This document shows positions 20,654 through 44,266 of a stretch of 64,000 nucleotides of DNA, piece after piece; the stretch's first letter is position 1; each line of letters starts with the position of its first letter. The position numbers were made by a program, and so were the translations under genes. The notes under the pieces are model-generated. The model was not told the origin of the DNA, did not search any database, and saw only the letters and a program-made list of their open reading frames with translations. The DNA is from Paracoccus alcaliphilus (GTDB taxonomy: Bacteria; Pseudomonadota; Alphaproteobacteria; Rhodobacterales; Rhodobacteraceae), in the NCBI RefSeq assembly GCF_028553725.1, contig NZ_CP067126.1, positions 186,001 to 250,000 of the forward strand. The letters run 5' to 3'.

Positions 20654-21676
20654 TCAACGCACATAGACGCTGCCGATGCCGATCCGGGTATCGGCTGCCA
20701 TTTCCGACGTCAGCCGGTCAAAGAAATCCTCGGCCAACTCGCCTGCATGGGCGTTGACGGCGCGGGGGCGCGAGGGGCTGGCGATGGCCATGACCAGTTG
20801 GTGGGTGTCGCGGGCCGGGCCGCTGCGGGCCAGCGGCACGTCGAAATGCGTCTGCCCGGCCGAGGCGATCTGAAAGCGCCGCATGTCATGGACGACGCCG
20901 TTGTCGTCGATCAGCAGCAGCGTCGTGTACATCCCCGCCGCCCCCGCGACACTGCCGCGCAAATTGCCGCCGCTGGCCACGTCCTGAGAGTCCAGTTGCA
21001 GCCCCAGACCCAGCACCGGATAGCGCGGATCGCGCCGGGCGAAATCCAGCGCGGGGCATTGGCGGCGGTCCAGCAGCACGGCGGATTCGACGATCTGCGT
21101 GTCCAGATCCTGCGTCAGTTCGTCCATCAGGCCAGAGATGCGGCGGTCATCGGCGGCCAGAACGCCCAGCTGGATCTGATCCTCGCCCAGCATGGCGGGC
21201 AGGGCCAGCAGGCAGGATTCGCTCAGCCGCCCGCGGATACGGTCGAACAGCTGGCTGATGCGGGGATCGGCCGGCGCGCTGTCCTGCGGCGCGGGGCCGG
21301 GGTCGCCACCCGCGATGTCGCCGGGCATGTCGGGCAGGGTCTGCACCATCGCCAACGGCGGATCGCTGAGCAGCGGGGACAGGACCGCCGACGGGCTGTC
21401 CGGCGCGGGCTGATCGGGCTGCGAGACGGGGGCCAGCGTTTCGCCACCCGTTGCATCGGCCACTGCGGTCTCGACCGGGGTCAGGGTCGGGGCATCGACG
21501 GCGGCGGTGGGCAGGCTGGTCAGGTCCAGTTGCAAGCTGACCGGCTGGTCCTGAGCCGGAGCGGGCCAGGGCCATTGCGGTTGCCAGACCAGCGCCACCG
21601 CCGCCGCGCCATGCAGCAGCACCGACAGCGCGCCCGCCGCCGCCCAACCGCGCTGTGCCTGTGACGCGCCGATCAT
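20654..21676 (-). CDS. TonB-like envelope protein with a domain shared with the PpkA kinase
   Basis: A 340-residue protein built like TonB/TolA: one N-terminal membrane helix (about 11-30), a Pro/Ala-rich linker (about 36-136) and a periplasmic C-terminal domain (about 137-340). It is last in an operon of ExbB-, ExbD- and ExbD-like genes, each overlapping or nearly so, and overlaps the second exbD by ATGA, so it is probably the effector energised by that motor. Its C-terminal domain is not a classical TonB fold. It matches the periplasmic domain of the kinase at 42266-44266: C155 and C207 here align with C458 and C510 there, within QCPALDF and QCPAVDF, and G241, G260 and D264 align at the same offset of 303. 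A disulphide between the two cysteines is likely. Confidence 0.7.
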   Translation of the reverse strand: MIGASQAQRGWAAAGALSVLLHGAAAVALVWQPQWPWPAPAQDQPVSLQLDLTSLPTAAVDAPTLTPVETAVADATGGETLAPVSQPDQPAPDSPSAVLSPLLSDPPLAMVQTLPDMPGDIAGGDPGPAPQDSAPADPRISQLFDRIRGRLSESCLLALPAMLGEDQIQLGVLAADDRRISGLMDELTQDLDTQIVESAVLLDRRQCPALDFARRDPRYPVLGLGLQLDSQDVASGGNLRGSVAGAAGMYTTLLLIDDNGVVHDMRRFQIASAGQTHFDVPLARSGPARDTHQLVMAIASPSRPRAVNAHAGELAEDFFDRLTSEMAADTRIGIGSVYVR

Positions 21677-22068
21677 TCTGCCACCCCGACATGGCGGGTG
21701 ACAAGGCGGATGTCATGGCCTTCGACCTCGGGCCGGCGCAGCAGTTCCAGCAGCAGCGAGGACGGCGCCTGACGGTCGATCACCACATGCAGCGGCCCAT
21801 CCTGCCCGGCCAGAGCCGCCGCCAGCAGGTCGGGCAGGATGGGGTCGCCGTCCAGCAGCCATTGGTCGGTGCCGCGCAACTCCAGCACGGGCGCGGGCAG
21901 GGCGCCCGCTGGCAGCTCGCTGGTCTCGGCCAGTTGCAGATCGCGCGGCGGAGGGCTGTCCTGCCCGGCGGCCAGAAAGAAGAAGATCAGCAGCAGCACG
22001 ATATTGACGATGGCCAGCGCCGGGTCCAGGCGCATGTGCGGTTCGCGGCGGGGCAGGTTCAGGCTCAT
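21673..22068 (-). CDS. ExbD/TolR-like protein, second copy
   Basis: A 131-residue protein with a short cytoplasmic N-terminus, one membrane helix (about residues 18-33) and a periplasmic domain, as in ExbD/TolR. It overlaps its neighbours by ATGA on both sides. The helix reads ALAIVNIVLLLIFFFL; where ExbD proteins have an essential Asp this one has Asn22, whereas the other ExbD copy upstream keeps Asp27. The two may form a mixed dimer with only one protonatable side. The start at 22068 was chosen from the overlap and the fold. Confidence 0.75.
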   Translation of the reverse strand: MSLNLPRREPHMRLDPALAIVNIVLLLIFFFLAAGQDSPPPRDLQLAETSELPAGALPAPVLELRGTDQWLLDGDPILPDLLAAALAGQDGPLHVVIDRQAPSSLLLELLRRPEVEGHDIRLVTRHVGVAE

Positions 22069-22520
22069 CTGATCGACCCGTCCGCGATCTGGACCGAGCC
22101 GATGCCGCGCGCCGACAGCGCCTCCAGCACGGTGATGACATTCTGCACCGGAACATCGGGGCGCAGCACCACCAGCACATTGGGCGTGCCCTGCGCCGTC
22201 AGCGCCTGCGCCAGCGTTGCCACGCTGTCCAACCCGAAGCGCTGGCCACTGGCGGTCAGCCCCTCGGGCGTCAGGGTCCAGACCGCGGTGGCGCGGATAT
22301 CGGTGGCATTGGCGGCCCCGTCGCCTGCCTCGGACGCGCCCGGACCGGCGCCACCCAGCACGCCGGTGCGCACGTCCAGCATGGCGAATGGCGTCAGGCT
22401 GGCCGACAGCATGAAGAAGATCAGCAGCTGGAACAGCATGTCGGCCATCGCGGTCATCGAGAACCCATAGCGCCGCCGCCGCTGTGGCAACTGGATACGG
22501 GCGGGCCGGGCGGCGGGCAT
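22065..22520 (-). CDS. ExbD/TolR-like biopolymer transport protein
   Basis: A 151-residue ExbD-family protein: basic N-terminus (QRRRRYGF), a single helix MADMLFQLLIFFMLSAS with the proton-carrying Asp at residue 27, and a periplasmic domain ending in VITVLEALSARGIGSVQIA, typical of ExbD. The gene follows exbB by 3 bases and overlaps the second exbD by ATGA. With ExbB it should form a proton-driven motor in the inner membrane. Confidence 0.85.
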   Translation of the reverse strand: MPAARPARIQLPQRRRRYGFSMTAMADMLFQLLIFFMLSASLTPFAMLDVRTGVLGGAGPGASEAGDGAANATDIRATAVWTLTPEGLTASGQRFGLDSVATLAQALTAQGTPNVLVVLRPDVPVQNVITVLEALSARGIGSVQIADGSIR

Positions 22521-22523
22521 GGA

Positions 22524-23165
22524 TCAGCCCTGCCCGGGCTGGCCCAGACGCCCGTGAATGGCGGCCGAGATCACGATCTCGATCGTCTGGCGTTCGTCCT
22601 CGATCCGGCCCTCCAGCCATGCGGCGGCGAAATAGGCGACCAGTGCGATGGCCAGCCCCGCCGCCGTCGTGGTCAGCGCGGTCCAGATGCCGGATGCCAG
22701 CAGCGAGGGATCGGCGGTCTGACTTTGCAGCGCAAGGTTGCCGAAGGCGTCGATCATGCCGATCACCGTGCCCAGCAGGCCCAGCATCGGCGCCATCTGG
22801 ACCACGGCCTCCAGCAGGCGCATCCGCGCGCCCATCTGCACCAGTTCCGACAGCGCCACCTGCCGGGCCAGTTCCTCGCCATAGGCCGGATCGCCGGGAC
22901 GCGCGCGCATCCCCGACATGACTGCGACCATCACCCGCGCCAGAACCGAGCGGGTGGCCCCGGCCTTGCGCTGCGCCTCGTCGGGGCGGCCGTTCAGCCA
23001 GTCGTCAAGGATCGCCTCGGCCTGATTGTGGCGCCCGACGCCCATCCGGCGGAACTGCATCACCTTGAAGATGGCGACGGTCAGCGTCAGCACCGACAGC
23101 GCGATCAGCGCGACAAAAACAAGGATGGTGATCAGCGGCAGGTCGCTGGGGATCGTGTCCAACAT
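22524..23165 (-). CDS. MotA/TolQ/ExbB-type proton channel protein
   Basis: A 213-residue protein with three membrane helices: about 10-33, and a pair at about 118-145 and 158-185. The conserved TolQ/ExbB block is APMLGLLGTVIGMIDAFGNL, followed by IWTALTTTAAGLAIALVAYF. The large cytoplasmic loop between helices 1 and 2 is as expected. It is the motor stator for the two ExbD-like proteins encoded directly after it. The small secreted protein gene upstream ends 6 bases before its start. Confidence 0.88.
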   Translation of the reverse strand: MLDTIPSDLPLITILVFVALIALSVLTLTVAIFKVMQFRRMGVGRHNQAEAILDDWLNGRPDEAQRKAGATRSVLARVMVAVMSGMRARPGDPAYGEELARQVALSELVQMGARMRLLEAVVQMAPMLGLLGTVIGMIDAFGNLALQSQTADPSLLASGIWTALTTTAAGLAIALVAYFAAAWLEGRIEDERQTIEIVISAAIHGRLGQPGQG

Positions 23166-23170
23166 GAGGG

Positions 23171-23620
23171 TCAGATGCCGAATTCGATGTCGGTCAGGGC
23201 GCGCGTGGCCAGCCCGGTCAGACAGGGGTTGCGCATATCCGTGCCGTCATCGGCGCGGCATTCGGCGACATCATTGACGATGATGCGCCCGATCTGGTCG
23301 CAGGGGCGGCCCTGCAATTCGAACATGGCGACCTTGGTCTTGCCGCTGACAAGCTGGCCGAAATCCAGCACAGGCAGGCTTTGCACCACCCCCGCCGCAT
23401 CGAAGATCGCCACCTGCCATGCGGCCCGTTCCAGCCCCTGCGGCAATCCGTTGGTCACGACCACGGTCAGACGGCAGCCGCCCTGTTCGGACGGCGCGGC
23501 GGCGTTCAGTTCCAGCAGGATGCCGTCGCCGGTCTGCGCCCAAGCGCCCGGCGCGGAAAGGGCCGTCATGGAAAAAGGCAGGAATGCGGCTGTCAATATC
23601 GCCGCGGCAATGCCTCGCAT
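23171..23620 (-). CDS. Small secreted protein, first gene of the ExbBD operon
   Basis: I do not recognise the family. The 149-residue product has a clear signal peptide (cleavage after AWA, about residue 28) and a mature domain with four cysteines (in GGCRLTV, GRPCDQIG, AECRAD and NPCLTG), probably two disulphides in the periplasm. Its pattern of beta strands (LTVVVTNGLPQGLERAAWQVAIFD) suggests a small immunoglobulin-like fold. The gene is 6 bases from exbB and so is probably a functional partner of the motor. Confidence 0.65.
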   Translation of the reverse strand: MRGIAAAILTAAFLPFSMTALSAPGAWAQTGDGILLELNAAAPSEQGGCRLTVVVTNGLPQGLERAAWQVAIFDAAGVVQSLPVLDFGQLVSGKTKVAMFELQGRPCDQIGRIIVNDVAECRADDGTDMRNPCLTGLATRALTDIEFGI

Positions 23621-23638
23621 CGCAAGACCTTTCTGAAA

Positions 23639-24055: not shown

Positions 24056-24127
24056 GTTGCCTGAACTCCGTTTGACAAAGACTTAGCACGACTTGCCTGC
24101 CCGCTCAATTCGACCATAGATGATTTT

Positions 24128-24547
24128 ATGAAACTGTCGCGTCTTTCCCTGGCTCTGCTGCTGGCATCGGTGGGCTGGCTGCTGCCCTGCGCGGCGATGG
24201 CCGGGCTGCGGCTGTGCAACCAGTCATTCGACGTGCTGAATGTCGCCATCGCCACGCCGGCCGAGGGCGATTTCACCACCCGTGGCTGGTGGCGGGTGGC
24301 GCCGAACCAATGCGCCACCTTGCAACGCGATGCCCTGAGGTCACGGTTTTATTATGTCTTTGCAGCCGATATCTTCGGTAATGAAGTGCTGTCAGGGGCG
24401 ATTCCGATGTGCGTGGCACCCCGCCGTTTCGAGATTTCGGGCCAGCAGGATTGCCTGCTGCGCGGGTTTCTGGATGCGCGCTTTCTGGAAGTGGATACGC
24501 AGGAGCAACAAAGCTGGACCGTCTTCGTGACGCCGCGCCAGATGTGA
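24128..24547 (+). CDS. DUF1036 periplasmic protein
   Basis: A 139-residue secreted protein with a signal peptide ending AMA (about residue 25) followed by the DUF1036 pattern: GLRLCNQSFDVLNVAIA, the TRGWWRVAPNQCATL block, a YYVFA strand and a terminal cysteine segment CVAPRRFEISGQQDC. The four cysteines suggest two disulphides. The biochemical role of DUF1036 is unknown. Here it is first in a rightward operon with peptidoglycan-active proteins, opposite the ExbBD operon. Confidence 0.82.
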   Translation: MKLSRLSLALLLASVGWLLPCAAMAGLRLCNQSFDVLNVAIATPAEGDFTTRGWWRVAPNQCATLQRDALRSRFYYVFAADIFGNEVLSGAIPMCVAPRRFEISGQQDCLLRGFLDARFLEVDTQEQQSWTVFVTPRQM

Positions 24548-24552
24548 GCTGG

Positions 24553-25368
24553 ATGACCATGACCACCCGCCTTGCCCATTCCGCCTTTGGTGCCGCGCTG
24601 CTGATCTGGGCAGTCGCGGCTGCGGCGGATGAGGGGGGGAATGGCGGGCTGGTGATCTCGACCCTGCCAGCCGAGCCGCTGCAACCGCTGACGATGAATG
24701 AGGTGATCGAGGCCAGCCAGCCAACGGCCGCACCCGACCAGCCCACCCCTGACCTGCCCGCGCCGGATCGGATCGCCGCCGCGCTGCCCGCGCCCGATGC
24801 GCCGCGCCGGGCCGGGCTGCCCGAACCCTCGATCATCCTTGGCGATCTTGCGGTGCTGATGACCACGGCGGAACGCGGCCCCCTTGGCACGCCCCGCCCG
24901 GCGCGCGAGGCGATCCGCCAGCGCGATCCGGCCATGTTCCGGCGGTTGCTGACGCAGGGCGCATTTGACCCTGACGAGGCGCAGGTCACGGCGGCGGTGC
25001 AGACCGAACTGGGGCAGATGGGCTGCTATGGCGGCGGTATCGACGGCAGCTGGGGCGCGGGTTCGGCCTCGGCGCTGGCGCGTTATTTTCAGGCGTTGGG
25101 TTCGGCCGAGGCCGCGACGGCGCCGGATCTGTCGCTGTTTCGCACCATCGCCGGGAACGAGGCCGTCACCTGCCCCGAGGTCCGCGTCGCCGCCCCCACG
25201 ACCCGCACCCCCGCGACACAGGCCAGCCGCAATCCGTCGCGCGGGGGCGGCGGCGGGCAGGCTGCGGCGGCCAATACGGCGCCGCGACAGGAACCGTCCG
25301 CCGCGCAACCCGCCAGCGGGCCACCCCGGATCAATCCCGGCCTGATGGGGTCGGGCATGTTCCGCTGA
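24553..25368 (+). CDS. Secreted protein with peptidoglycan-binding-like domain
   Basis: A 271-residue protein with a signal peptide (ending AAAADE, about residue 24) and a Pro/Ala-rich region, then a peptidoglycan-binding-1-like repeat at about residues 138-180: VTAAVQTELGQMGCYGGGID, then GSWGAGSASALARYF, the pattern 'Q..L...GCY.G.IDG.WG..S..AL..F'. The C-terminal 70 residues are low complexity, rich in Gly, Ala and Pro. It starts 5 bases after the DUF1036 gene and shares a TGATG junction with the next gene. An ATG at 24559 is a possible start. It probably tethers the complex to the cell wall. Confidence 0.72.
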   Translation: MTMTTRLAHSAFGAALLIWAVAAAADEGGNGGLVISTLPAEPLQPLTMNEVIEASQPTAAPDQPTPDLPAPDRIAAALPAPDAPRRAGLPEPSIILGDLAVLMTTAERGPLGTPRPAREAIRQRDPAMFRRLLTQGAFDPDEAQVTAAVQTELGQMGCYGGGIDGSWGAGSASALARYFQALGSAEAATAPDLSLFRTIAGNEAVTCPEVRVAAPTTRTPATQASRNPSRGGGGGQAAAANTAPRQEPSAAQPASGPPRINPGLMGSGMFR

Positions 25369-27563
25369 TGCGCCCGATCGAGATCGACCCGCGCTTTCGC
25401 CAGATGGGGCAGGGCGCGCGTCGCCGTCGCCAGCGGGTCGCCGCGATCCGCTGGGGGGCGGGGCTGTCAGTGCTGTCGGTCTCGGTGGCGCTTGGCGGGT
25501 GGCTGTGGCGGCCCGATCTGTCGTTCTGGCGCGGCGGCGATCTGGATGAGGGGCTGGTGCAGGTCGAAAGCCAGTTCGACATCGCCCCGGCGGTGCGGGC
25601 CGATACCTTCACCGATATTCCGGGCGATCCGCTGATCATCGCCGCCCCCGACGATTCCGGCCCACGCGACAGCCGCGATCTTCCCGCCCCGGCCGAACTG
25701 GCCGGGCGCATCGCCGGGGGGCGGTCCGTGACCATGCTGGACAGCCGGTTGATGCAGCCGAACCGGCGGCTGGTGGCCATGCTGCCCTCGACGCGCGAGG
25801 AATTCGCCATGTTCCGCGCCGAACGCAGCAGCGTGCGGCTGATGGATGCCTCGTTCCAGTCCCAGACGACGGGGTTGGAGGTGCCCGCCGATCAGCGCGC
25901 CTCCAGCGGCGTGGCCTTTCTGCGTGACGCGCGGATGCGCCCGGCGCTGTGGCGCGACCTGATCCTTGAAACCACGCGCGAGGTCGGGCTGGCGGAACTG
26001 CTGGGCGATAACGGTTTCTCGGGGCCCGAAGCCGAACGTCTGGCCGCGCGGATCGAAAGCCAGATCGGCGTTGCGCCCGATCTGGCCGCGCGTTCGGTTC
26101 TGGCGCTGCGCTATCGCCTGCGAGGTGAGGCGCGTGAAATCATCCAGCTGTCGCTTTATGGTCCCGAAGGCTATGTCGGGTCGCTGGCGATGAACCCGGC
26201 GGGGCAACTGGTCACCTCGGCCGATGCCTGGGCCGATCAGCCGCTGCTGGACGATCTGCTGGCGCGGCAGGGTGACGAGGGCGCGGGGCGGCAACGGCTG
26301 CTGGATCTGATCTATTCGGCGGGCCTGCGCAATGACGTGCCGCCCGAACTGATCGGCGAGGCGCTGGCGATGATGTCCAAGGTCTATGACCTTGACAGCC
26401 ATGCCGAAGATTCCGACCGCCTGACGCTGGTTTATGCGCCGGGCACGGGACCGGCCAGCCCCGGCACGATCCTGTTCATCGGCATCAGCGGCGCAGGCGG
26501 GGACCGGCCCTGCTATGTCGTGCCTGCGGAGGGCGGTGAGGGCTTCGAGTGCTACGCCCCTTCGGCCCGGGTGCAGCAGCGTGACCGCGCCGCGCAGCTG
26601 GTGCCGCCGGTCGCGGGCGTGCTGTCGCGTCGTTTCGTGCCGCCCGCCGATGGCGCAGAGGAAGGTCGCGGGCAGGTCGTCTGGTCGGCCCCCGATGGCA
26701 GCCCGGTCATGGCCGCAGGCAGCGGGCGGATCACCGCGCGCACCGTCGATGAGAGCGGCGCGACGCTGGAGATCACGCATGAGGGCGGCATGGTCAGCCG
26801 CTATGCCGGGCTGGCGGGGCTGTCGGCCTCGGCGGCGGTGGATGCGCAGATTTCTGGCGGCACGGTGATCGGCACCATCGGACGCACGCCGGGCCAGTCC
26901 GAGCCGGGGCTGGTCTTTCAGCTGCTGTCCGATGGTGTGCCGGTCGATCCGATGCCATATCTGAGCGGCGCGGGCGAGGTTCTGGCCTCGGACGCGATCG
27001 AGCTTCTGATCGGGCGCATCATCACCGTCGAAAGCGCGGGCAATGCGGCGGCGCGCAATCCGCTGTCCTCGGCGACGGGGCTGGGGCAGTTCATCGAATC
27101 GACATGGCTGCGGATGATGCAAAGCTATCGCCCCGACATGGCGCGCAACCTGTCGCGCCGCGAATTGCTGGATCTGCGGCTGGACCCGGACCTGTCGCGG
27201 CTGATGGTCCGGCATCTGGCGCAGGAAAACGAGGCCTATCTGCGCGCGGCCGGTCACGCGATCACGCCGGGGCGGCTGTATCTGGCGCATTTTCTGGGAC
27301 CGGCGGGGGCAGATCAGGCGCTGCGGGCCGATCCTGGGACCTCGGTCGGGCAGGTGATGGGGCCGGCGGTCGTGTCGGCCAACCCGTTCCTGCGCGGCTG
27401 GCGCATTGCCGATCTGCATGCCTGGGCGGATCGCAAGATGGCCGGGGCGGGGGCCGGTCATGTGGCAGCGGTGGTCGCACCGCCGGTCTCGGCTGAAATC
27501 CGCGCCTATGTCAGCGCCATGGACCGTTTGCGGCAGGCAGGGGGGACACAGACCGAGATGTGA
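25368..27563 (+). CDS. Membrane-anchored LytM-like / lytic transglycosylase fusion protein
   Basis: A 731-residue protein with one N-terminal membrane helix (about 28-47), a long unassigned region, a LytM (M23)-like domain (about 411-530, VPPVAGVLSRRF onward) and a C-terminal lysozyme-like transglycosylase domain (about 540-690). In the M23 part the zinc motif is degraded: the usual YAHL is YAGL and HLHFEV has become LVFQLL, so it is probably not a peptidase. The transglycosylase part keeps the catalytic Glu, E555, in ITVESAGNAAARNP and SATGLGQFIESTW. It should cut or remodel peptidoglycan from the inner membrane side, possibly to let an envelope machine through. Confidence 0.75.
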   Translation: MRPIEIDPRFRQMGQGARRRRQRVAAIRWGAGLSVLSVSVALGGWLWRPDLSFWRGGDLDEGLVQVESQFDIAPAVRADTFTDIPGDPLIIAAPDDSGPRDSRDLPAPAELAGRIAGGRSVTMLDSRLMQPNRRLVAMLPSTREEFAMFRAERSSVRLMDASFQSQTTGLEVPADQRASSGVAFLRDARMRPALWRDLILETTREVGLAELLGDNGFSGPEAERLAARIESQIGVAPDLAARSVLALRYRLRGEAREIIQLSLYGPEGYVGSLAMNPAGQLVTSADAWADQPLLDDLLARQGDEGAGRQRLLDLIYSAGLRNDVPPELIGEALAMMSKVYDLDSHAEDSDRLTLVYAPGTGPASPGTILFIGISGAGGDRPCYVVPAEGGEGFECYAPSARVQQRDRAAQLVPPVAGVLSRRFVPPADGAEEGRGQVVWSAPDGSPVMAAGSGRITARTVDESGATLEITHEGGMVSRYAGLAGLSASAAVDAQISGGTVIGTIGRTPGQSEPGLVFQLLSDGVPVDPMPYLSGAGEVLASDAIELLIGRIITVESAGNAAARNPLSSATGLGQFIESTWLRMMQSYRPDMARNLSRRELLDLRLDPDLSRLMVRHLAQENEAYLRAAGHAITPGRLYLAHFLGPAGADQALRADPGTSVGQVMGPAVVSANPFLRGWRIADLHAWADRKMAGAGAGHVAAVVAPPVSAEIRAYVSAMDRLRQAGGTQTEM

Positions 27564-27672
27564 CGGTTTCGAGACGGTACAGAAAGCTTGTTTTGACCGC
27601 AAACGTCGCGTTATCCAGTATATGGCGGATTCCCTGCCCGGCCTGGCCGCTCCGATTTAGAGAAGATATTTC

Positions 27673-30600
27673 ATGATGACCGAGATTTCGCACCGCTCCA
27701 TTCGTGTTGCCAGCCGCGCCCGGTTGCTGCTCTCTACCGCGCTGATCGGATTGGCACCGCTGATATTCATGCCCGACGGGGCCAATGCGCAGCAAGCCTG
27801 GCTGGACAACAATCCAGACGGCGGAGATCCGATCAGCGGCACATGGTCGGCTGACAGCGAGATCTGGGAACCTCGCTGGGTGTGGCAGCCGCGCGTTCTG
27901 ACTGCGGGCACGACAGGTATCCTGCACCATTCCGATCCCGAGGCGGCAATCGAACTGACCATTGATGGGCTGGTCCAGGCCGATGCGCTGCGCCTTGAAT
28001 CCGGCGATTACACGCTGAGCGGCGGCGAGATCAATTCCTTCGGCGGCGAGCTGACATTTGACATCGCGGCAGAGCGCACCCTGACCGTCAGTTCGATCCT
28101 GCGTCGATATATCCGGATCACCGGCGAGGGGACGCTGCATTACTTGTCCGAGGAGCCCGGGACGAACGGTCTTTATATCGGCGATGGTGCGACCTTGATC
28201 AGCGAGGGCCTGACCCGGCAATTGATGGAGGTCGATGGCACCGCGCTGTTGAGCGGTACCCATGAGGGCGGGGTGAATATCAGTGAAACTGGCGAGGTTC
28301 GCGGCGTCAGCGAGATCAATGGTCGGGTTGAGAATGACGGAATCGCCGAACTTGGCGGTTCGACGGGCGAAATTGAAAACCGTGGTACGCTGGACGTTGA
28401 TGGCGAACTGGCGGCGTCGCGGATCTGGAACCGTGAAGACGCACAGCTTGCGGTCGCGGCTGGTGAACGGTTGCAGTCGGAACTCTGGGTTCACAATTTC
28501 GGGGATATGTCGATTGCGGGCGAACTGGCGGTTGTTCAGGAAGGTCGCGGGTTGCGCAACTACAGTGGCGGGGTGCTGGCGCTGGATGGGGCATCGCTGT
28601 CGGGTGACCTGATTAATAATGAAGGCGGTAATATCGAGCTGCGGGATGCGGTGGAGGTGAATGGTTCCGTCACCAACCGCGGCAGACTGGAAGTTCAGGG
28701 CGATACAGCCAACAGTCTGGAGGCCGTCGACGGCACCGTGACCCATAGCGGCGAGATCGTTTTGACCGGCGCGGGCCGCTTCAGCATCCTTGCTCGCGAA
28801 ATCGTATTGCAGGGCGATGCCAGGATCGATGGCAGCGTGATCGATCTGATCGGCGATATCTTCAATCAAGCGACGCTGCTCTATTCCGGCACGACGACGT
28901 TGGCAGGCAATCTGGTGAATAGGGGCCTTGGTCTGGCGACGATTGCCGGCACGCTGGACGCGAACGGGACCGAGGTGATGAACCGCGGCACCATGATCAT
29001 TGCCGCCGAAACCGAGGATGATGCCGGTACCGTGCCCGGCGGACGGCTGGAGAATGTCACCACGCTGGTCAGCCGCGATCATCTGTCCATCGGTCGCGGC
29101 GGCTCGGTTCAGGCCGACCTGCTGTCCAATCGCGCGGAAGGCGAGGTGCATATCGCGGGCAGCCTGACCGGCGATCTGGAAAACTATAGTCAGGCCAGCG
29201 TCACGCTGGATGAGGGGCAGATTTCCGGCGATGTCAGCAACAGCGGGTTGCTGGCGGGCAGCGGCGCGATCGGGGGCGACGTCACCAACCGGGGCACGCT
29301 GCGCGTCGATGATCTGCTGACGGTCGGCGGTCTGGGCAATACCGGTCAGGTCGAGATCGGCGGCGACGACACTCTGCGCTCGGCCAGCGATATCTCCAAT
29401 GACGGCACCATCTCGCTGTCGGGGCTGCTGGAGATCACCTCTGTCGATGCCCTGCTGACCAATAATGGCGGCGGGCGGATCGCGCTGGATGGCGGCCGGA
29501 TCGAGGCCGGGCTGAACAACGAGGCCGATGCGCGGCTGGAGGTTTCGGGCACGGCCAGCATCGCCGGAAACCTTGAGAACCGCGGCATCATCGACAAGAG
29601 CAATGGCGCGGCCAGTCTGACCGTCGAGGGCGGCGCCTTCCACAACTGGGGCCGGGTCACCGGGTCCGGTGCGGGACGGCTGGCGATCCATTCGGCCCAG
29701 ATCATTCTGGAAAGCGGCTCTTACGTCGATGGCGGCCATGTCGATCTGATCGGCGAGGTGCTGAATGGCGGAGAGCTTGATTTCAGCAGCGACACCGAAC
29801 TGAATGGCGATCTGGCCAATGCCGAAAGCGGACTGGCGCGGGTGCGGGCCAATGTCGATGCGGCGGGGTTCGACGTCAGCAATGCCGGAACCTTCATCGT
29901 GCAAAGCGAGGGCAACGGCAATCTGTTCAATGTCGGCACGCTGACCAACAGCCATGTTTTCACCATCGAGAATGACGGCTCGGTTCAGGCGGATGCGGCG
30001 ATCAACGAAGCCGGGGCGTTGCTGACCATCGCCGGGGCGCTGGATGCGCCGCTGACCAACCGCGCCGATGGCTCGGTGCTGCTGGAGGGTGGGCAGATCA
30101 CCGGGGCGCTGACCAATGCGGGTACGCTGAGCGGCTCGGGGCAGTTGACCGGCGATCTGCTGAATGACGGCACCGCCAGCCTTGCAGGCGCGGTCAGCGG
30201 CGCGGTGACCAATAATGGCAGCCTGCGGACCGAGGGCGATCTGTCCGCAGGTTCGGTGCAGAACAGCGGCAGCCTGCGGGTGGCGAACGGGCACCGGCTG
30301 AGTTCGGGCTCGACCGTGGGCAATGACGGCTCGATGATCGTGGCGGGGCAGGTGAATGCGGGTGTGGCGAACGGGGCCGGTGCCGATCTGACCCTGAACA
30401 CTGGCAGGATCACCGGCGCGGTCACCAATGACGGGCAGTTGACGGGCAACGGCCAGATCGGTGGGGCGCTGACGAATAACGGCACCGCCAATATCTCGGG
30501 CAGCGCGGGCGCGGTCAGCAATACGGGCGGGCTGTCCACCTCGGGCGATCTGACCGTCAGCCAGCTGACGAATGACGGGCAGGCGACGGTCGGCGCGGGG

Positions 30601-34026: not shown

Positions 34027-34164
34027 TTGGCTTCGCCGGGGTCATTGCTTACTGTGGCCGCTTGTCGGGGCCGGGCGAATTGCCGCCGGGGCCCTGACCT
34101 CAAGATTGCAAAGGGGCGCGCTTGCCCCACTATTGATTGAATGATTCAAGGAGCCTGACTCCGC

Positions 34165-37181: not shown

Positions 37182-40100
37182 GACTGCTTGGCCTTTATGT
37201 TCCGACCCCTCGCTGGAGCCGCCACGGATGGTGGCGCTGGACGGTGACGATCCTCGGGCTGCTGGCTCTGTGTCTGGCGGTCTGGTTCGGCGGCCCGATG
37301 ACGGGATGGGCGCCGCTGGCCGGACTGTGGCTGCGGCTGGCGATCATCGGCGTCATTCTGGGTGTGTTCCTGACCGTGTTGCTGGTGCGCTGGCGCCGCC
37401 GCGTCCGGGCCGCCCGCCAGATCGAGGATGCGCTGATCCCGCCCGAGCCCGAAGGCGACGGCAAGCTGCTGGCCGAAAAGATGACCGAGGCGCTGGCCGT
37501 GCTGAAGAAATCGGGCGGCGCGGCCTCGCTTTACGATCTGCCGTGGTATGTGATCATCGGCCCCCCCGGCGCGGGCAAGACCACCGCGCTGGCCAATTCC
37601 GGGCTGGAATTTCCGCTGGCGCAAAGTCAGGCGATCTCGGGATTTGGCGGCACGCGGAACATGGATTTCTGGTTCGCCGAGGATGCGGTGCTGATCGACA
37701 CCGCGGGCCGCTATACCACGCAGGACAGCGATGTGGTGGCCGACAAGGCCAGTTGGGACGCCTTCCTTGGTCTGCTGAAACGCAGCCGCCCGAACCGTCC
37801 GATCAACGGCGTGATCCTGTCCTTCTCGGTCGAGGACATGATGCGGGACGACCCCGCGACGCTGGCCGCCCATGCCGAGACCGTCCGCGCCCGTCTGGCC
37901 GAGTTGCACGAACAGCTGAAGATCGACTTTCCGGTCTATGTCATGTTTACCAAGGCCGACCTGATCGCCGGTTTCCGTGAATATTTCGCCAGTTTCAGCC
38001 TGAACCGGCGCAAGCTGGTCTGGGGCGTGACCTTCCAGACCAAGGACCGCAAGGCCATCACCCACGAGGCCGTGCCGCAGGAATTCGACCGGCTGGTGTC
38101 GCGCCTGTCCGACGAGATCATCGACCGCCTGTCCGAGGAACCCGACGGCGTGGCCCGCATCGCGATCTTCGGGCTGCCGGGGCAGATGGCGATTCTGCGC
38201 GACAATGTCTCGGGTTTTCTGCGCCGGGTGTTCGAGCCGACGCGCTACAAGACCAACGCGATCCTGCGCGGCTTCTATTTCACCTCGGGCACGCAAGAGG
38301 GCACGCCGGTGGATCAGGTGCTGGGCGCGATCCAGCAGCCCGATGCGGTGCTGGGGCCGGGCTTTCAGGCCGCGTTCATGTCGGGCAAGGGGAAAAGCTA
38401 TTTCATCCATGACCTGCTGCGCGGCGTGGTGATTCCCGAACAGGGCTGGGTGTCGCAGGACCAGAAGGCCGTCCGCCGTGCGCTGGCAATCCGCACCGTC
38501 GCGCTGAGTGCGATCATCGTGGCGACGCTGGGGGGCGCGGCGGCGCTGGGTTATTCCTATTGGAAAAACCTGCAACTGGTGCGCATGGCCGAGGCGCAGA
38601 CCGCCGCCTATCAGCGCGCCGCCGCCGAGGAACTGGACCGCGAGGTCATCACCGACACCGATCTGCGCCCGGTGGTGCCGCTGCTGAACATGGTGTCGTC
38701 GATGCCTGCGGGTTACGGCGACAGCGAACAGGCCAGCTTCTGGGAGGGTCTGGGCCTTGGTCAGCGCGAACGGCTGAACCGGGTCGCGACCGAATCCTAT
38801 GCCGAGGCGCTGGAGCGGATGCTGCGCCCGCGTCTGGTGCTGGACCTTGAACGGCGCATCCCCCAGACCATCGCCGCCGGAGAGATGACCGATATCTATC
38901 GGGCGCTGAAGGTCTATCTGCTGCTGGGCAAGCAGGGCGACACCACCGACGACGACGCCATTCTGGCATGGTTCGAGCAGGCGTGGCGGCAGGAATATCC
39001 GGGCCGCACCGGGCTGGACATGATCGACCAGTTGAAGGCGCATCTGACGGCGATGCTGCGGCTGGACGACAACCGGCAATTGCTGGTGGATCTGGATCAG
39101 GCGACGGTCGAACGCGCCCGCGCCGCCATCGCGCAGCTGCCGCTGGACGAACAGGCCTATGCCATCATCATGGACGGCGCGATTGCGCGCGGGCTGGACG
39201 ACTGGCGCCTTGAATCCGCCGTGGGCGGGGGCGCCGCCGCTCAGGTCTTTGCCACCCGCGACGGGTCGGATCTGGGGGCGCTGGTGGTGCCGGGGCTTTA
39301 TACCTATGAGGGCTTCTGGTCCTATTTCTATGACCAGCTTGCCGTTGTCGGCGATGAATTGCGCCGCGATCAGTGGGTGCTGGGCGAACTGGCCAACACG
39401 ACCGAGATCGAGGGGCGGCTGGCCCGTCTGGACCGCGATCTGCTGGAACGCTATCGCAGCGAATTCATCGGCGCGTGGAATGGCTTGCTGGACAATCTGA
39501 CGCTGAATTCGATGGTTGCCGACAAGCCGCAATATGCGGCGCTTGGCAATGCGGCCTCGGCCTCGGCCTCGCCCATTCTGGTGCTGGTGCGCGAGGTCTC
39601 GGCCCAGACCCGCCTGTCGCGCGAATACGAGCAATTGGAAGGCGTGGATCTGGAGGCCGAGGGCGAAAGCGATGAAGGCGGCGCCGGCGGTGTGGCCGGG
39701 GCCATTGGTCAGCAGCTGGCCTCTCGGGTTCAGTCACGCTCCAGCGGGGTGCAGCGGATCCTGCTGGATGCCGCCGCGCAGCAGGGTGGGGCGAATGCCC
39801 TGCGCGCGGGCAGCGGCGGCGGCGGGGGCGGCGAGCAGACCAACAGCGTCACCGCGCCCATCGACGCGATCTCGAAAGCGTTCGAGAACTGGCATATGCT
39901 GGCCGAGGGAGAGCCGGGCCAGCGTCCGGTCGATACGCTGCTGGGCAATCTGGGGCTGATCTGGGAAAATCTGCGGCTGGCCGAACATAACCCCGACCAG
40001 TCGGCGGCCGAGCTGCCGACGCTGCTGAACCGGCTGACGCAGTATAATTCGCAACTGCCCGATCCGCTGGCGCGGATGGTCACACGGGCCGAAGGCGATT

Positions 40101-40822
40101 TCCGATCCGGCGCGTCGGATGCCAGTATCGAGGTGATGAACCGCGCGCTGACCGACCGCATCAGCTTTTTCTGCCGCGACACGATCACCTCGGCCTATCC
40201 CTTCACCAATGCCTCGCGCAGCCTGTCCATCGACAATTTCTCGCGCTTTTTCGGGCCGGGCGGAGAGATGGACCGCTATTTCACCGAATATCTGGAACCC
40301 TATGTCGAGCGCAGCCCGGAAGGGCTGGCATGGCGAGCGGACAAGGAAATGACCAGCCGCCTGTCCACCGCCACCCTGAAACAGTTCGAGCGGGCCGAGA
40401 TGATCCGCCGCGCCTTTTTCGCGGGCGGCGGCAGCAGCCCCTCGGTCGAGATCACGGTGGCGCAGGTCGATGCCCATCCGTCCGTTCAGGCGGCGGTTCT
40501 GGCGATCAATGACGCGGTGGTGCAGACCGCAACCGGATCGCTGTCGCGCACCGTGGTCTGGCCGGGCGAGGGGCGTTCCACGATCCTGCAACTGTCACCG
40601 CCCCTGCAACGGGAATCGGTGATGCGGTTCGAAGGCAGTTCATGGACCTTCATGCAGTTTCTGGACGCGGCGACCTATAAGGAACAGCGCGGCGACGTGC
40701 TGCGCGCGACCTTCGTTCTGGGCGGGCGCAACATCACCTATGACTTCACCGTCAACGCCGTCACCAACCCCTTCACCATGTCCGAGATCAGAGAGTTCGA
40801 ATGTCCACAGAGCATCGACTGA
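37178..40822 (+). CDS. tssM: T6SS membrane protein TssM (ImpL/IcmF)
   Basis: A 1214-residue IcmF/TssM protein. Two membrane helices near the N-terminus are followed by a cytoplasmic NTPase domain with intact Walker A GPPGAGKTT (residues 128-136) and Walker B AVLIDTAGRY, then a third helix near residue 440 and a large periplasmic part. The start is taken as the TTG at 37178, overlapping the tssL stop (TTGA) just before RLLGLYVPTPRW; no ATG is available close by. It forms the trans-envelope channel with TssL. No TssJ lipoprotein gene is adjacent. The 3' end overlaps tagF by 22 bases. Confidence 0.92.
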   Translation: MRLLGLYVPTPRWSRHGWWRWTVTILGLLALCLAVWFGGPMTGWAPLAGLWLRLAIIGVILGVFLTVLLVRWRRRVRAARQIEDALIPPEPEGDGKLLAEKMTEALAVLKKSGGAASLYDLPWYVIIGPPGAGKTTALANSGLEFPLAQSQAISGFGGTRNMDFWFAEDAVLIDTAGRYTTQDSDVVADKASWDAFLGLLKRSRPNRPINGVILSFSVEDMMRDDPATLAAHAETVRARLAELHEQLKIDFPVYVMFTKADLIAGFREYFASFSLNRRKLVWGVTFQTKDRKAITHEAVPQEFDRLVSRLSDEIIDRLSEEPDGVARIAIFGLPGQMAILRDNVSGFLRRVFEPTRYKTNAILRGFYFTSGTQEGTPVDQVLGAIQQPDAVLGPGFQAAFMSGKGKSYFIHDLLRGVVIPEQGWVSQDQKAVRRALAIRTVALSAIIVATLGGAAALGYSYWKNLQLVRMAEAQTAAYQRAAAEELDREVITDTDLRPVVPLLNMVSSMPAGYGDSEQASFWEGLGLGQRERLNRVATESYAEALERMLRPRLVLDLERRIPQTIAAGEMTDIYRALKVYLLLGKQGDTTDDDAILAWFEQAWRQEYPGRTGLDMIDQLKAHLTAMLRLDDNRQLLVDLDQATVERARAAIAQLPLDEQAYAIIMDGAIARGLDDWRLESAVGGGAAAQVFATRDGSDLGALVVPGLYTYEGFWSYFYDQLAVVGDELRRDQWVLGELANTTEIEGRLARLDRDLLERYRSEFIGAWNGLLDNLTLNSMVADKPQYAALGNAASASASPILVLVREVSAQTRLSREYEQLEGVDLEAEGESDEGGAGGVAGAIGQQLASRVQSRSSGVQRILLDAAAQQGGANALRAGSGGGGGGEQTNSVTAPIDAISKAFENWHMLAEGEPGQRPVDTLLGNLGLIWENLRLAEHNPDQSAAELPTLLNRLTQYNSQLPDPLARMVTRAEGDFRSGASDASIEVMNRALTDRISFFCRDTITSAYPFTNASRSLSIDNFSRFFGPGGEMDRYFTEYLEPYVERSPEGLAWRADKEMTSRLSTATLKQFERAEMIRRAFFAGGGSSPSVEITVAQVDAHPSVQAAVLAINDAVVQTATGSLSRTVVWPGEGRSTILQLSPPLQRESVMRFEGSSWTFMQFLDAATYKEQRGDVLRATFVLGGRNITYDFTVNAVTNPFTMSEIREFECPQSID

Positions 40823-41508
40823 CGACCGGTGAGGCGGGGCTCTATGGCAAGCATCCGGGCTTTGGCGATTTCATCGCGGCGGGCCTGCCCGAGGCGGTCT
40901 TTGCCACGCTTGGCGACTGGTTGCAGGCGGTGCTGGGCGATTGGCGCGCAGCGGCGGGCGATGGCTGGCAGGCGGCTTTCGATGCCGCGCCGAATTTGGG
41001 TTTCTGGATCGGTGCGGGGTTGATCGGCGGTGCGCCTTTGCGCGGTGTCTGGGCGCCCTCGCGTGACCGGGCCGGGCGGCGGTTTCCGCTGCTGGTGCTG
41101 CAATCGGGCGGGGGCAGTCCGGTGCTGGAGCCGGGGCAGGATTTCCATCAGGCCGCGCGGCGGGCCATCGATGCGCTGGCCGAGGCCAGACATTTCGATC
41201 CCCGCGATGCGGCCTCGCGTCTGCGCGCGGAACTGCCCGCGCCGCCCGATCAGCCCGCGCCCGACTGGCCGACCTTCTGGGCGGTGAACCCGCAATTGCC
41301 GGTCGAGGCGCTGTTGGGTCAACTGCGCGAGGCCGACCACCTGCACGCCACATCCGGGCGCAGCTATTGGTGGTTCGCGAATGGTGAACAGGGGCCTTCG
41401 GGCCTGTTGTCCTGTCAGGGCTGGCCCGGCGCGTCCGAGATGGGCTGGCTGATCGGTGGCGGCGGCACCTTCGCCCCGACCGGAAATCTCGATGGAGGAA
41501 CGGCGTGA
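40801..41508 (+). CDS. tagF: T6SS-associated protein TagF (ImpM)
   Basis: A 235-residue TagF/ImpM protein with the diagnostic N-terminus GLYGKHPGFGDFIAAGLPE and blocks NLGFWIGAGLIGGAPLRGVW and GRRFPLLVL. TagF is a post-translational repressor of T6SS in Pseudomonas and Agrobacterium, acting on the threonine-phosphorylation pathway. The ATG lies 22 bases inside the tssM end; the stop overlaps the phosphatase start (GTGA). Confidence 0.9.
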   Translation: MSTEHRLTTGEAGLYGKHPGFGDFIAAGLPEAVFATLGDWLQAVLGDWRAAAGDGWQAAFDAAPNLGFWIGAGLIGGAPLRGVWAPSRDRAGRRFPLLVLQSGGGSPVLEPGQDFHQAARRAIDALAEARHFDPRDAASRLRAELPAPPDQPAPDWPTFWAVNPQLPVEALLGQLREADHLHATSGRSYWWFANGEQGPSGLLSCQGWPGASEMGWLIGGGGTFAPTGNLDGGTA

Positions 41509-42269
41509 CGGGAACGGATCTGACCTTCAGCTTTCATGTGGGCGCGCTGACCGACAAGGGGCGGGTGCGCGCGCATAACGAGGACAGCCTGATTTCGCTG
41601 CCGGAACTGGGCATCTGGGCCGTGGCCGACGGGATGGGCGGGCACGCCGCGGGCGATGTCGCCAGCGGGCTGATCGTGGATGAGCTGGCCTCGCTTGGGG
41701 TGCCGGTCAGCGCGCAGGATCAGCGCGCGCGTGTGCTGGAGCGGCTGGACCGCGCCCATCACCACATCCTGTCCCATGCCGAACAGAACGGGCTGGCCAC
41801 CGTCGGCGCGACCATTGCCGTTCTGCTGATCCACGGCGCAGAACTGACCTGTATCTGGGCGGGGGACAGCCGCATCTATCTGTGGCGCGACAAGGCGCTG
41901 ACACCGCTGACCCGCGATCACAGCGAGGTGGCGCAGATGGTCGCCGCCGGTGCCATGACCGAGGCAGAGGCCCGCGTCGCGGCGCGTCGCAACGTCATCA
42001 CCCGCGCCATCGGCATCGGCCCCGAGCCGCGCCCCGAACTGGTCAGCGGCACGGTCCGTCCGGGTGACCGGCTGCTGATCTGCTCGGACGGGCTGACCGA
42101 GCATCTGGGCGATCAGGATCTGGCGCTGGAACTGTCGCTGGCCGCGCCCGCCGCCGATATCGCCGCGCGGCTGATCGGCGAGACGCTGGCGCGCGGGGCG
42201 CATGACAATGTCAGCGTCATCGTCGTCGATTGCGAGGCCGTGCTGCCGCCCGAGGATGACGAGTTGTGA
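41505..42269 (+). CDS. pppA: PP2C-type Ser/Thr phosphatase, PppA-like
   Basis: A 254-residue PPM-family phosphatase with all metal-binding motifs: VRAHNEDSL, VADGMGGHAAGDVAS, CIWAGDSRIYLW, LLICSDGLTEHL and AHDNVSVIVVD. It has no membrane segment and should be cytoplasmic. In T6SS clusters this protein (PppA/Stp1) opposes the kinase PpkA. GTG start overlapping tagF, and its stop overlaps the kinase start (GTGA). Confidence 0.92.
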   Translation: MTGTDLTFSFHVGALTDKGRVRAHNEDSLISLPELGIWAVADGMGGHAAGDVASGLIVDELASLGVPVSAQDQRARVLERLDRAHHHILSHAEQNGLATVGATIAVLLIHGAELTCIWAGDSRIYLWRDKALTPLTRDHSEVAQMVAAGAMTEAEARVAARRNVITRAIGIGPEPRPELVSGTVRPGDRLLICSDGLTEHLGDQDLALELSLAAPAADIAARLIGETLARGAHDNVSVIVVDCEAVLPPEDDEL

Positions 42270-44266
42270 CCTCCGATCCCGACCATGAAGGCAAGGAACC
42301 CCCGCCCGACCGCACGGTGATCGCTGACCAGCCCTCTGCCGACATTCCCGACCGCACCGTGATCGGCCCGGAAACCGCGCCGTCCGATACCCCCGCTGCG
42401 CCTGCCGACCCGACGCTGATCGGCGATCAGCCGCAGACCCAGGGCGGGGCGGCGGTGCGTCTGGTCCAGCCCGGCACGCTGATCAACAACAATTACCGCA
42501 TCAATTCGCTGGTCAGCGTCGGCGGCATGGGCGAGGTCTATCGGGCCGAGAACGTCTTTACCGGCGACCCGGTGGCGGTGAAGGTGATCCTGCCCGATCT
42601 GGCGCAGGATGCCGCGGTGCTGGACCTGTTCCGGCGCGAGGCCCGGGTGCTGGTGCAACTGCGCGACGATGCCATCGTGCGTTATCACAACTTCGTTCTG
42701 GATAACGGGCTGGGCCGCTATTGCCTGATCATGGAATTCGTCGAGGGCCGCCATCTGGGCACCCGCGTCAACGAGGATGGCCCGCTTGACGATCACGCCG
42801 CGCTGGCGCTGATGCGCCGCCTTGCCGCCGGGCTGGGCCGCGCCCATGCCAGCGGCGTCACCCATCGCGACCTGTCGCCCGACAACGTCATTTTGCGCGA
42901 CGAGCGCGTGGATGAGGCCGTGCTGATCGACTTCGGCATCGCCCGCTCGACCGAGCTTGGCGACGGGCTGGCGGGGCGTTTCGCAGGCAAGTTCAAATAT
43001 ATCGCGCCCGAGCAGCTGGGCCATTGGGGCGGCGATATCGGGCCGTGGACCGATGTCTATGGGCTGGCGCTGCTGATCGCGATGGTGGCGCGTGGCAAGC
43101 CGCTGGCGATGGGGGATTCGGTCATCAGCGCCTCGACCGCGCGGCAGGCGATCCCGGATCTGGGCGGACTGTCGCACCGGCTGTTTCCGCTGCTGCAACA
43201 TATGCTGGAACCCGATCCGCAGCGCCGCCCCCGCGACATGGCGCAGGTGCTGCGGATGATCGAGGACCCGCTGCATCTGCCCGCGCAGTATCGGCTGCCC
43301 TTGTGGTCCGCCTCGGCCCCTGCACCTGATGATACCGGGGCCGGGCCGACGGTCATTGCCGCCGATCCGGTGACGCAATCGGACAGCCCCTTTGCCGCGC
43401 AGCCCATGCCCGCCATGCCGGCCTCTGATCCGCCGCGGCCTTCCGGTCGGGGCCGCTGGATCGCCGGGGGTGCGGTCGTCGCGGTGCTGGCCATCGCCAC
43501 CGGTGCCTTTCTGGCGCTGCGCCCGGATCGGCCCGAACCCGTGGCCGAAGTCCCCGATCCGCCCCCCGTCGCCGCGCTGGCCGAACGCGACGAGACCACG
43601 CGCGAGGGGTTTCTGGCCAGCCAGAGCCTGCCCGATTGCACCCTGGCTTATCGCATCGAACGCGGCGCCAATGCCGGGATGATCGCGACGGTGGGGGCAG
43701 GGCCGGTGGATGGTTCTGCCCTGCTGGCCGCCTATGAGGCGCAGTTCGGCACCCGGCCATCGCTTGTCAGTCAGCAGGTGGCGCAGGCGCAATGCCCCGC
43801 CGTGGATTTCCTGCGCCAGATCAGCGGACGCCCCGCCGCGGCACCCGCATTGTCGGTGGATGTGCAGGGCGGCGGGCAGGCGTTCCAGATCCGAGGCGAG
43901 GTCTCGGGCATGGCCGCACGCAATCTGTGGCTGTTTCTGGTCGCGCCGGATGGGGCCGTCTATGATCTGACGGCGCAGGCCACGCGGGACGATGACGGGC
44001 GCGACCGTTTCGGCATCTCGGTCGGCATGGCCGAGGGGGGACAGCCCTATCTGCTGGCGGCGCTGGCATCTGATGTGGCGCTGGCCTCGGTCGCGGCGGC
44101 GCCTGCGGCCAGTCCGGCGGCGGAACTGCTGCCGCGTGTGCTGGATGAACTGCGCGCGGCGGGTGCCGCCCCGGCCGTCGATCTGGTGGTGATTACGCCA
44201 GAGCCAGCGGAAGAACCCGCCGAACCGGAGGCCGAGGAGCCCGAAGCCGCCGATCCTGCCGACTGA
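42266..44266 (+). CDS. ppkA: Transmembrane Ser/Thr kinase, PpkA-like (ImpN)
   Basis: A 666-residue kinase. The cytoplasmic part has a glycine loop GGMGEVY (86-92), K106, catalytic HRDLSPDN (200-207) and DFG (222-224). One membrane helix (about 398-418) leads to a periplasmic domain (about 445-645) and an acidic tail. Four TVI/TLI motifs resemble those of TssL: DRTVIA (T17), DRTVIG (T31), DPTLIG (T50) and GPTVIA (T362), likely autophosphorylation sites for an FHA protein. The periplasmic domain matches the C-terminal domain of the TonB-like protein at 20654-21676, with C458 and C510 52 residues apart in both, and could sense or dock on that envelope motor. GTG start, GTGA overlap with pppA. 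Confidence 0.9.
   Translation: MTSDPDHEGKEPPPDRTVIADQPSADIPDRTVIGPETAPSDTPAAPADPTLIGDQPQTQGGAAVRLVQPGTLINNNYRINSLVSVGGMGEVYRAENVFTGDPVAVKVILPDLAQDAAVLDLFRREARVLVQLRDDAIVRYHNFVLDNGLGRYCLIMEFVEGRHLGTRVNEDGPLDDHAALALMRRLAAGLGRAHASGVTHRDLSPDNVILRDERVDEAVLIDFGIARSTELGDGLAGRFAGKFKYIAPEQLGHWGGDIGPWTDVYGLALLIAMVARGKPLAMGDSVISASTARQAIPDLGGLSHRLFPLLQHMLEPDPQRRPRDMAQVLRMIEDPLHLPAQYRLPLWSASAPAPDDTGAGPTVIAADPVTQSDSPFAAQPMPAMPASDPPRPSGRGRWIAGGAVVAVLAIATGAFLALRPDRPEPVAEVPDPPPVAALAERDETTREGFLASQSLPDCTLAYRIERGANAGMIATVGAGPVDGSALLAAYEAQFGTRPSLVSQQVAQAQCPAVDFLRQISGRPAAAPALSVDVQGGGQAFQIRGEVSGMAARNLWLFLVAPDGAVYDLTAQATRDDDGRDRFGISVGMAEGGQPYLLAALASDVALASVAAAPAASPAAELLPRVLDELRAAGAAPAVDLVVITPEPAEEPAEPEAEEPEAADPAD

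Follow-up and report, generated by a model that had tools for sequence, protein, structure and literature searches.

A domain shared by a motor arm and a kinase

We examined a 64,000-nucleotide stretch of Paracoccus alcaliphilus (contig NZ_CP067126.1, positions 186,001 to 250,000; here, the window), which carries genes for an ExbB/ExbD-type proton motor and for part of a type VI secretion system (T6SS) with a PpkA-type Ser/Thr kinase. The kinase and the TonB-like protein encoded with the motor, here called TonBL, share a C-terminal periplasmic domain of about 200 residues. TonBL (20654..21676, minus strand) translates to 340 amino acids (aa) and consists of an N-terminal transmembrane (TM) segment with the motif S18-x3-H22, a Pro/Ala-rich linker, and the motor copy of the domain, T (residues ~136 to 340; 20657..21271, minus strand). 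The kinase (42266..44266, plus strand; 666 aa) has its catalytic domain at residues 80 to 328 (PF00069, E 1.9e-31), a TM segment placed by eye at about residues 398 to 418, and the kinase copy, K, at its C terminus (43571..44208, plus strand). A first-pass annotation of this DNA had given the correct coordinates for both proteins, leaving the minus strand of the TonBL gene unstated.

That annotation had matched five residue pairs of the two copies at one offset, and all are present: C155/C458, C207/C510, G241/G544, G260/G563, and D264/D567, each at 303. This offset scored best of 600 tried (+48 over 204 positions; the runner-up reached -76 over 131), with 29 of 115 positions identical across TonBL residues 150 to 264. 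BLASTP aligned T with K at E 1e-7 over an ungapped 60 residues (206-265 against 509-568), and the local alignment score of 101 was reached by none of 2,000 shuffles, among which the maximum was 65. Profile-profile comparison of the two regions with hhalign, which the annotation had proposed as a check, gave 99.6% (E 2.1e-24) over 196 columns for 19 against 16 sequences, compared with at most 2.5% in 60 column-shuffled controls; a second run gave 99.5%. The homology that had been claimed therefore stands, and it reaches beyond the gap-free extent of about 110 residues, as the alignment with relatives runs to ~196 columns and includes small gaps. T and K are homologous over the whole domain. In each copy, the two cysteines (Cys155/Cys207 and Cys458/Cys510) lie 52 residues apart, and both cysteines and the Gln preceding the second are invariant in 83/83 rows of a combined T/K alignment.

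The first-pass annotation had known of no named domain with this pattern, and within Pfam, NCBIfam, and PDB sequence searches this remains the case. Pfam returned only scattered weak matches (best E 0.0064) across 59 motor-type and 43 kinase-type members, NCBIfam gave no match to the domain in either window protein, and nothing fell below E 0.4 in PDB sequence searches. AlphaFold2 models were built from separate alignments of the 59 T and 43 K sequences and reached mean pLDDT values of 93.3 and 94.9, respectively. As the annotation had anticipated, the predicted folds agree when compared by the order of their DSSP elements, which is nearly the same: helix, two strands, helix, strand, and helix in the first part, followed by seven strands (T) or six (K), two helices, and a last strand. 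The K model has a short additional strand between the two late helices, which T lacks. By eye, the N-terminal half might be BON-like. In both models, one cysteine lies just before the first strand and the other in the third helix. Because the pair is similarly placed in both models and invariant, a disulfide between its members is likely.

Structural searches did not assign the domain to a known family. Foldseek against PDB found no match at E<=0.001 for the K model and two SoxY chains for the T model (E 7e-4 and 8e-4; query TM-score 0.28), suggesting that the beta-sandwich half of T loosely resembles a generic Ig-like sandwich. With hhalign, the sandwich half aligned to DUF4384 (PF14326) at 61.8% over 44 columns, against at most 1.4% in 60 shuffled controls; this weak alignment covers a stretch of the sandwich half and leaves the N-terminal half of the shared domain uncovered. 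We rejected membership in DUF4384, as ~62% over only 44 columns of an 81-position model is below the usual threshold for homology, and none of 102 members scanned had a Pfam match to the family. At most, the result suggests that DUF4384 is a distant relative of the sandwich half.

One T6SS-linked gene cluster

To place the two genes in a wider context, we used a peptide-pattern scan of genome contigs, which returned 158 stretches; the 77 confirmed among them are the loci referred to here. By title, these belong to Rhodobacteraceae/Rhodobacterales (Paracoccus, Sulfitobacter, Leisingera, Jannaschia, Tateyamaria, Rhodobacter, Celeribacter, and others). T and K occur together in 51 of the 77 loci; in 49 of these 51 the two genes converge, and the median distance from one last sense codon to the other, counting the stop codons, is 12 bases. 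ExbB, ExbD1, and ExbD2 lie near TonBL in 76/77 loci (the remaining locus is a 5.5-kb contig), and TssM lies within the flanks in 47/77. Among the regions of 22 relatives, 10 share, with small differences, the order M23 - pgb - DUF1036, then g149 - ExbB - ExbD1 - ExbD2 - TonBL, then PpkA - PppA - TagF - TssM - TssL - TssK - autotransporter, TonBL and PpkA being the genes that meet tail to tail (genomes G187, G286, G294, G163, G284, G279, G262, G081, G063, and G232; ExbD2 was undetected in the last two). TssC falls within the same region as the domain genes in 8/22 relatives, and Hcp was identified in G187, the sole relative checked for it.

The motor and kinase genes are thus parts of one T6SS-linked cluster. 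The first-pass annotation had treated them as separate operons of separate systems, which the 51 joint loci contradict; its proposal that genomes with both domains near T6SS genes should be sought was borne out by these loci and by the PpkA block with TssM-TssL-TssK in 10/22 regions. In the window, the block from TonBL to M23 sits on the opposite side of the T6SS block, which separates T from K. We considered whether this separation is a rearrangement special to the window genome and rejected the idea, since the layout recurs among close relatives: at L078, L079, and L084, all from Paracoccus, the autotransporter adjoins M23, and in their genomes K lies ~23 to 24 kb from T.

Next to TonBL in the window, on the minus strand, are ExbD2 (21673..22119; start codon not fixed), a second ExbD in which Asn replaces the TM Asp and whose ExbD Pfam match (E 0.039) is below the cut-off; ExbD1 (22065..22520; PF02472, E 3.4e-10), which keeps the Asp; and an ExbB/TolQ-type proton channel (22524..23165; PF01618, E 3.6e-26). 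The Asp is found in 76/77 aligned ExbD1 rows, with one gap, and the Asn in 74/77 ExbD2 rows, the others being one Ser, one gap, and one Asp in a visibly misaligned row. Since ExbD1 keeps the Asp and ExbD2 carries Asn, the two are by sequence a naturally asymmetric pair, one member of which lacks the proton-carrying residue. TonBL has no match to TonB_C or any other Pfam family at E<=1 and none in NCBIfam. We class it as a TonB/TolA-type arm from its single N-terminal TM segment with Ser-x3-His and its position beside exbB and exbD. A Ser/Ala-x3-His motif was found in the TM segment of 69/77 TonBL proteins by a relaxed script (59 Ser and 10 Ala; stricter filters gave 52/77 and 54/77), and 7 of the 8 proteins missed carry the TM His motif by eye, all with Ala. 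According to the available text of PMC12215075, Ser-x3-His belongs to the SHLS motif, by which TonB and TolA are coupled to their motors. The module is therefore like TonB-ExbBD and TolA-TolQR, as described there, in its ExbB, its ExbD, and its single-TM arm with Ser/Ala-x3-His, but it differs in bearing a PpkA-type C-terminal domain instead of TonB_C or TolA and in having a second ExbD without the TM Asp.

On the plus strand, the T6SS block comprises TssK (34165..35499; PF05936, E 3.3e-141), TssL with DotU and OmpA parts (35475..37181; PF09850, E 5.8e-53; PF00691, E 3.8e-11), TssM/IcmF (37112..40822, start approximate; PF14331, E 4.4e-86; PF06761, E 7.5e-71), TagF (40801..41508; PF09867, E 8.6e-26), and a PppA-type PP2C phosphatase (41505..42269; PF13672, E 9.1e-13), which overlaps the start of the kinase gene. 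A Ser/Thr kinase, TM segment, and periplasmic domain (the TM segment and sidedness by eye) encoded with PppA, TagF, and tssKLM identify the kinase as PpkA-type. What had been annotated as a T6SS-like operon belongs to a real T6SS: the genome encodes TssC (C3:123644 and C4:18390), TssK (C3:220219 and C4:25841), and FHA proteins (C3:120457 and C4:24032), with TssL and TssM in the window. The tssC and FHA genes on the same contig lie ~61 to 66 kb before the window, and contig C4 holds a second T6SS. FHA proteins were present in 21/21 genomes tested. Thr motifs of the TVIG/TVFG type are repeated at the N termini of the kinase (42266-42430) and of TssL (35475-35740), and these could be phospho-sites for Fha binding.

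Several further genes accompany the cluster. Between the motor and the T6SS block are g149 (23171..23620, minus strand), a small exported protein with a signal peptide by eye and no Pfam or NCBIfam family, which is a candidate periplasmic partner; a DUF1036 protein (24128..24547, plus strand; PF06282, E 1.3e-35); "pgb" (24553..25368, plus strand; start not fixed), an exported protein with no Pfam match that is peptidoglycan-binding-like by eye only; and an M23 peptidase (25368..27563, plus strand; PF01551, E 2e-13), a cell-wall hydrolase with an SLT-like region below the cut-off (PF01464, E 0.022). A giant repeat-containing protein of 2117 aa (27673..34026, plus strand), labeled autotransporter-like by eye, has no Pfam match at E<=0.1. 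Relatives of this protein occur in 14/22 regions and adjoin TssK or PppA in many of them; in G026 the corresponding open frame is ~4000 aa. The TonBL stop is ~0.2 kb from an IS66-type element (18977-20430), and 1.45 kb past the kinase lies an IS110-type transposase (45717-47222).

One reading of a motor in such a cluster is that TonBL replaces the outer membrane anchor TssJ (PF12790), which was found in only 3/29 genomes searched and, in the window genome, only on C4 beside the second tssK. TssJ was also absent from 7/8 chosen T6SS genomes that lack the shared domain and, in the available text of PMC9515649, from the T6SS1 clusters of roseobacter symbionts. Because T6SSs without the domain lack TssJ as well, its absence does not track TonBL, and we rejected the replacement as very improbable indeed.

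Co-occurrence and descent of the two copies

To determine how widely the domain occurs, we searched 295 Rhodobacteraceae genomes with a profile of both types, scoring the best 10 candidates per genome, and 385 genomes at the class level, scoring the best 8. The domain was found in at least 25 of the 295 and in at least 2 of the 385, namely the window's own genome and one other of the same family. TssK is encoded in all 25 domain-bearing genomes, compared with 72/295 overall (hypergeometric 1.2e-17, uncorrected for kinship). Two low-scoring genomes, G080 and G189, were left out, as the examined regions held no domain by hidden Markov model (HMM) and no TssC or TssK. Among the best 10 candidates per genome, 17 genomes have both T and K, 6 have K without T, and 2 have T without K; these last two (G147 and G166) are rated 73% and 71% complete.

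The named loci gave a similar picture. For the 26 loci without a local K, a whole-genome search in which all candidates were scored found a second copy of the domain elsewhere in 24/26 genomes. All 24 copies are K-type by HMM, and 22 have a kinase motif in the same frame; of the remaining two, one occupies a frame of 311 aa and the frames of the other are broken. The two exceptions (L108 and L110) are metagenome-assembled genomes with short contigs, whose matches are at the same places as those of G147 and G166. Across the 295-genome sample and the 77 loci, T without K was seen in no reasonably complete genome. At L224 and L234 (Paracoccus sp. DMF-8 and P. cavernae), K has a frame that is short or broken, and the window K has a long branch in the tree described below; either kinase control may be decaying in some Paracoccus or the assemblies are in error.

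Not all of these genomes keep kinase and T6SS core together: in G175 and G026, PppA-PpkA has TonBL as its neighbor, and TssC and TssK lie at other sites. This layout would suit a reversed direction of control, in which PpkA and PppA regulate ExbBD-TonBL, the shared domain only co-localizes them, and the motor is an output acting in firing or in passage through the outer membrane. The co-occurrence of T and K would be expected under that direction too, but the PpkA substrates named in the available text of PMC6082577 and PMC3953482 are Fha and TssL, and we regard control of the motor by the kinase as improbable.

Phylogenetic analysis separates the two copies cleanly. In a 137-row tree, a single branch divides T from K (100/97; 100% of 200 bootstraps), which fits one duplication after which both copies descended in parallel for a long time. 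The nearest relative of the window T is from an uncultured Paracoccus (54%), and the window K branch has a length of 1.53, against 0.56 for the window T. For the comparison of trees, we relied on trimmed alignments from 44 common loci and report each correlation before and then after TssM and ExbB were taken into account; ExbD2 rows were unreliable in both runs made because of overlapping frames. Of the trees compared, that of K gives the highest correlation with T distances, r 0.88, and 0.65 after TssM and ExbB, with 0/500 permutations as high, compared with r 0.68 and 0.16 for T and PppA. This correlation supports co-inheritance of T and K and is compatible with contact between them.

These data also bear on whether the shared domain has any shared function. 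The domain could have come to both proteins by chance, through an inverted duplication where the 3' ends of two convergent genes face each other, and the tail-to-tail layout of 49/51 joint loci is the trace that such an event would be expected to leave. The invariant Cys pair has, however, been kept in both copies over deep divergence, K accompanies T even when the genes are not neighbors (24/26), and the trees of the two track each other. We consider a functionless fusion quite improbable. Taken together, the shared domain, the tail-to-tail order, the one-way co-occurrence, and the parallel inheritance give good support to motor and kinase being functionally linked.

A candidate envelope partner for PpkA

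How might a proton motor serve a T6SS kinase? In Agrobacterium tumefaciens, TssL receives a PpkA-dependent phosphate at Thr14 and is bound by Fha, according to the available text of PMC3953482. That system resembles the present one as an alphaproteobacterial T6SS with PpkA, TssL, and Fha, the Thr motifs being the counterpart here, and differs in that no ExbBD arm is mentioned in that text. In Pseudomonas aeruginosa, the H1-T6SS has TagQRST, likewise an envelope-spanning module, which controls the T6SS through the action of its periplasmic part on the ectodomain of PpkA (PMC6082577 and PMC12607579, as far as their available text goes). TagQRST consists of inner membrane TagST, an outer membrane lipoprotein, and TagR, whereas the module here is a proton motor with a paralog of the kinase ectodomain; the available part of PMC6082577 describes TagQRST as restricted to Pseudomonas. 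Two lineage-specific proteins are described, in the same partial sources, as binding the PpkA periplasmic domain: RtkS of Serratia marcescens (PMC6082577) and TssW of Acidovorax citrulli (PMC12607579). Both are single proteins for which those texts mention no motor or shared domain, and we set them apart by these descriptions rather than by sequence.

By analogy, ExbBD-TonBL is most likely a lineage-specific envelope partner of PpkA, in the role that TagQRST, RtkS, and TssW have elsewhere. The results computed here that bear on this role are the shared descent of the two copies, the agreement of their predicted folds, the gene neighborhood, the co-occurrence, the motor-coupling motif, and the Asp/Asn ExbD pair. 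ExbB-ExbD1-ExbD2-TonBL would form a proton-motive-force-coupled envelope module of the T6SS threonine-phosphorylation pathway. TonBL would cross the periplasm and end in a Cys-paired domain like that of the PpkA ectodomain, the two probably derived from one old duplication. T and K would meet in the periplasm, by mutual binding or through a common ligand, and the state of the motor or the envelope would set PpkA activity, with the signal passing from motor to kinase. PpkA would then phosphorylate Fha and/or TssL, and T6SS assembly would be licensed at that site. We give a little under an even chance to the central proposal, that the motor module is dedicated to the PpkA pathway of this T6SS and that motor or envelope state sets the activity of the kinase. 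The bolder idea that membrane energy or envelope tension is turned, by pairing or unpairing of T and K, into the phosphorylation decision that fires the T6SS is doubtful, if quite conceivable.

A different use of the domain is suggested by its surroundings. Near the motor, g149 is found in 71, pgb in 67, DUF1036 in 57, and M23 in 52 of the 77 loci, and in one genome (G004, L067:17842-19899) we found a third architecture, in which the shared domain sits at the C terminus of a murein endopeptidase of the M74 type (PF03411, E 2.3e-95). T and K might therefore dock on a common ligand, either peptidoglycan or a cell-wall or cluster protein such as g149, pgb, DUF1036, or M23, with the motor doing mechanical work at the T6SS site, in passage through the cell wall or outer membrane, without signaling to the kinase. 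The loose Ig-like resemblance of the sandwich half would also be in keeping with such docking. The absence of T without K from reasonably complete genomes argues against it; no ranking of K over the cell-wall neighbors follows from this, as these were sought within 10-kb flanks and K in whole genomes. Because that comparison was unequal, we moved our estimate for a common ligand slightly upward, to unlikely though a live contender, and that for the motor-to-kinase proposal slightly downward from even. The first-pass annotation had suggested that the kinase senses or docks on the periplasmic partner of the motor; its homology and functional link hold, and a common partner is one of two readings, the other being mutual binding of T and K.

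Several observations weigh against the proposal that the motor signals to PpkA. The M74 architecture points to a cell-wall ligand in place of T-K pairing. Three genomes rated 100% complete (G121, G131, and G247) yielded K but no T, so some kinases may do without T, although a T copy could have been missed among the 10 best candidates scored. Two genomes, G149 and G056, have the kinase beside the T6SS core and TonBL elsewhere. Ala occupies the first place of the coupling motif in 10/69 script-found TonBL proteins and in the 7 recognized by eye. The tree correlations are also less specific than the T-K value alone suggests: T correlates nearly as highly with ExbD1 (r 0.85, then 0.65) and closely with the kinase domain (r 0.83, then 0.46; 0/500 permutations as high), and dropping a deep clade shrinks the advantage of K (0.89 and 0.58, against 0.87 and 0.51 for the kinase domain). 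An earlier untrimmed run of all rows had given 0.84 and 0.56 for T-K and 0.68 and 0.12 for the kinase domain, so the trimmed run relied on here is the less favorable to a special T-K link. Since the ExbD1 and kinase-domain values are nearly equal to that of K, linkage alone could explain much of the T-K correlation.

A search of open-license papers by title and the start of the abstract, with subscription literature outside its scope, found none describing an ExbBD module in the control of a T6SS kinase or a tie between T6SS control and the proton motive force. The parts are of known kinds, and as far as we have seen in that literature, the wiring and the domain are new. The domain delineated here, so far without a name, has an invariant Cys pair, and the ExbD pair, one partner of which naturally lacks the proton-carrying Asp, should be useful for studies of motor mechanism. 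The signal input to PpkA-type kinases outside Pseudomonas is largely open, and in the available text of the sources cited above three lineages use three different periplasmic partners. The cluster described here offers a specific candidate PpkA partner in a large environmental family, one through which the proton motive force would bear on T6SS control.

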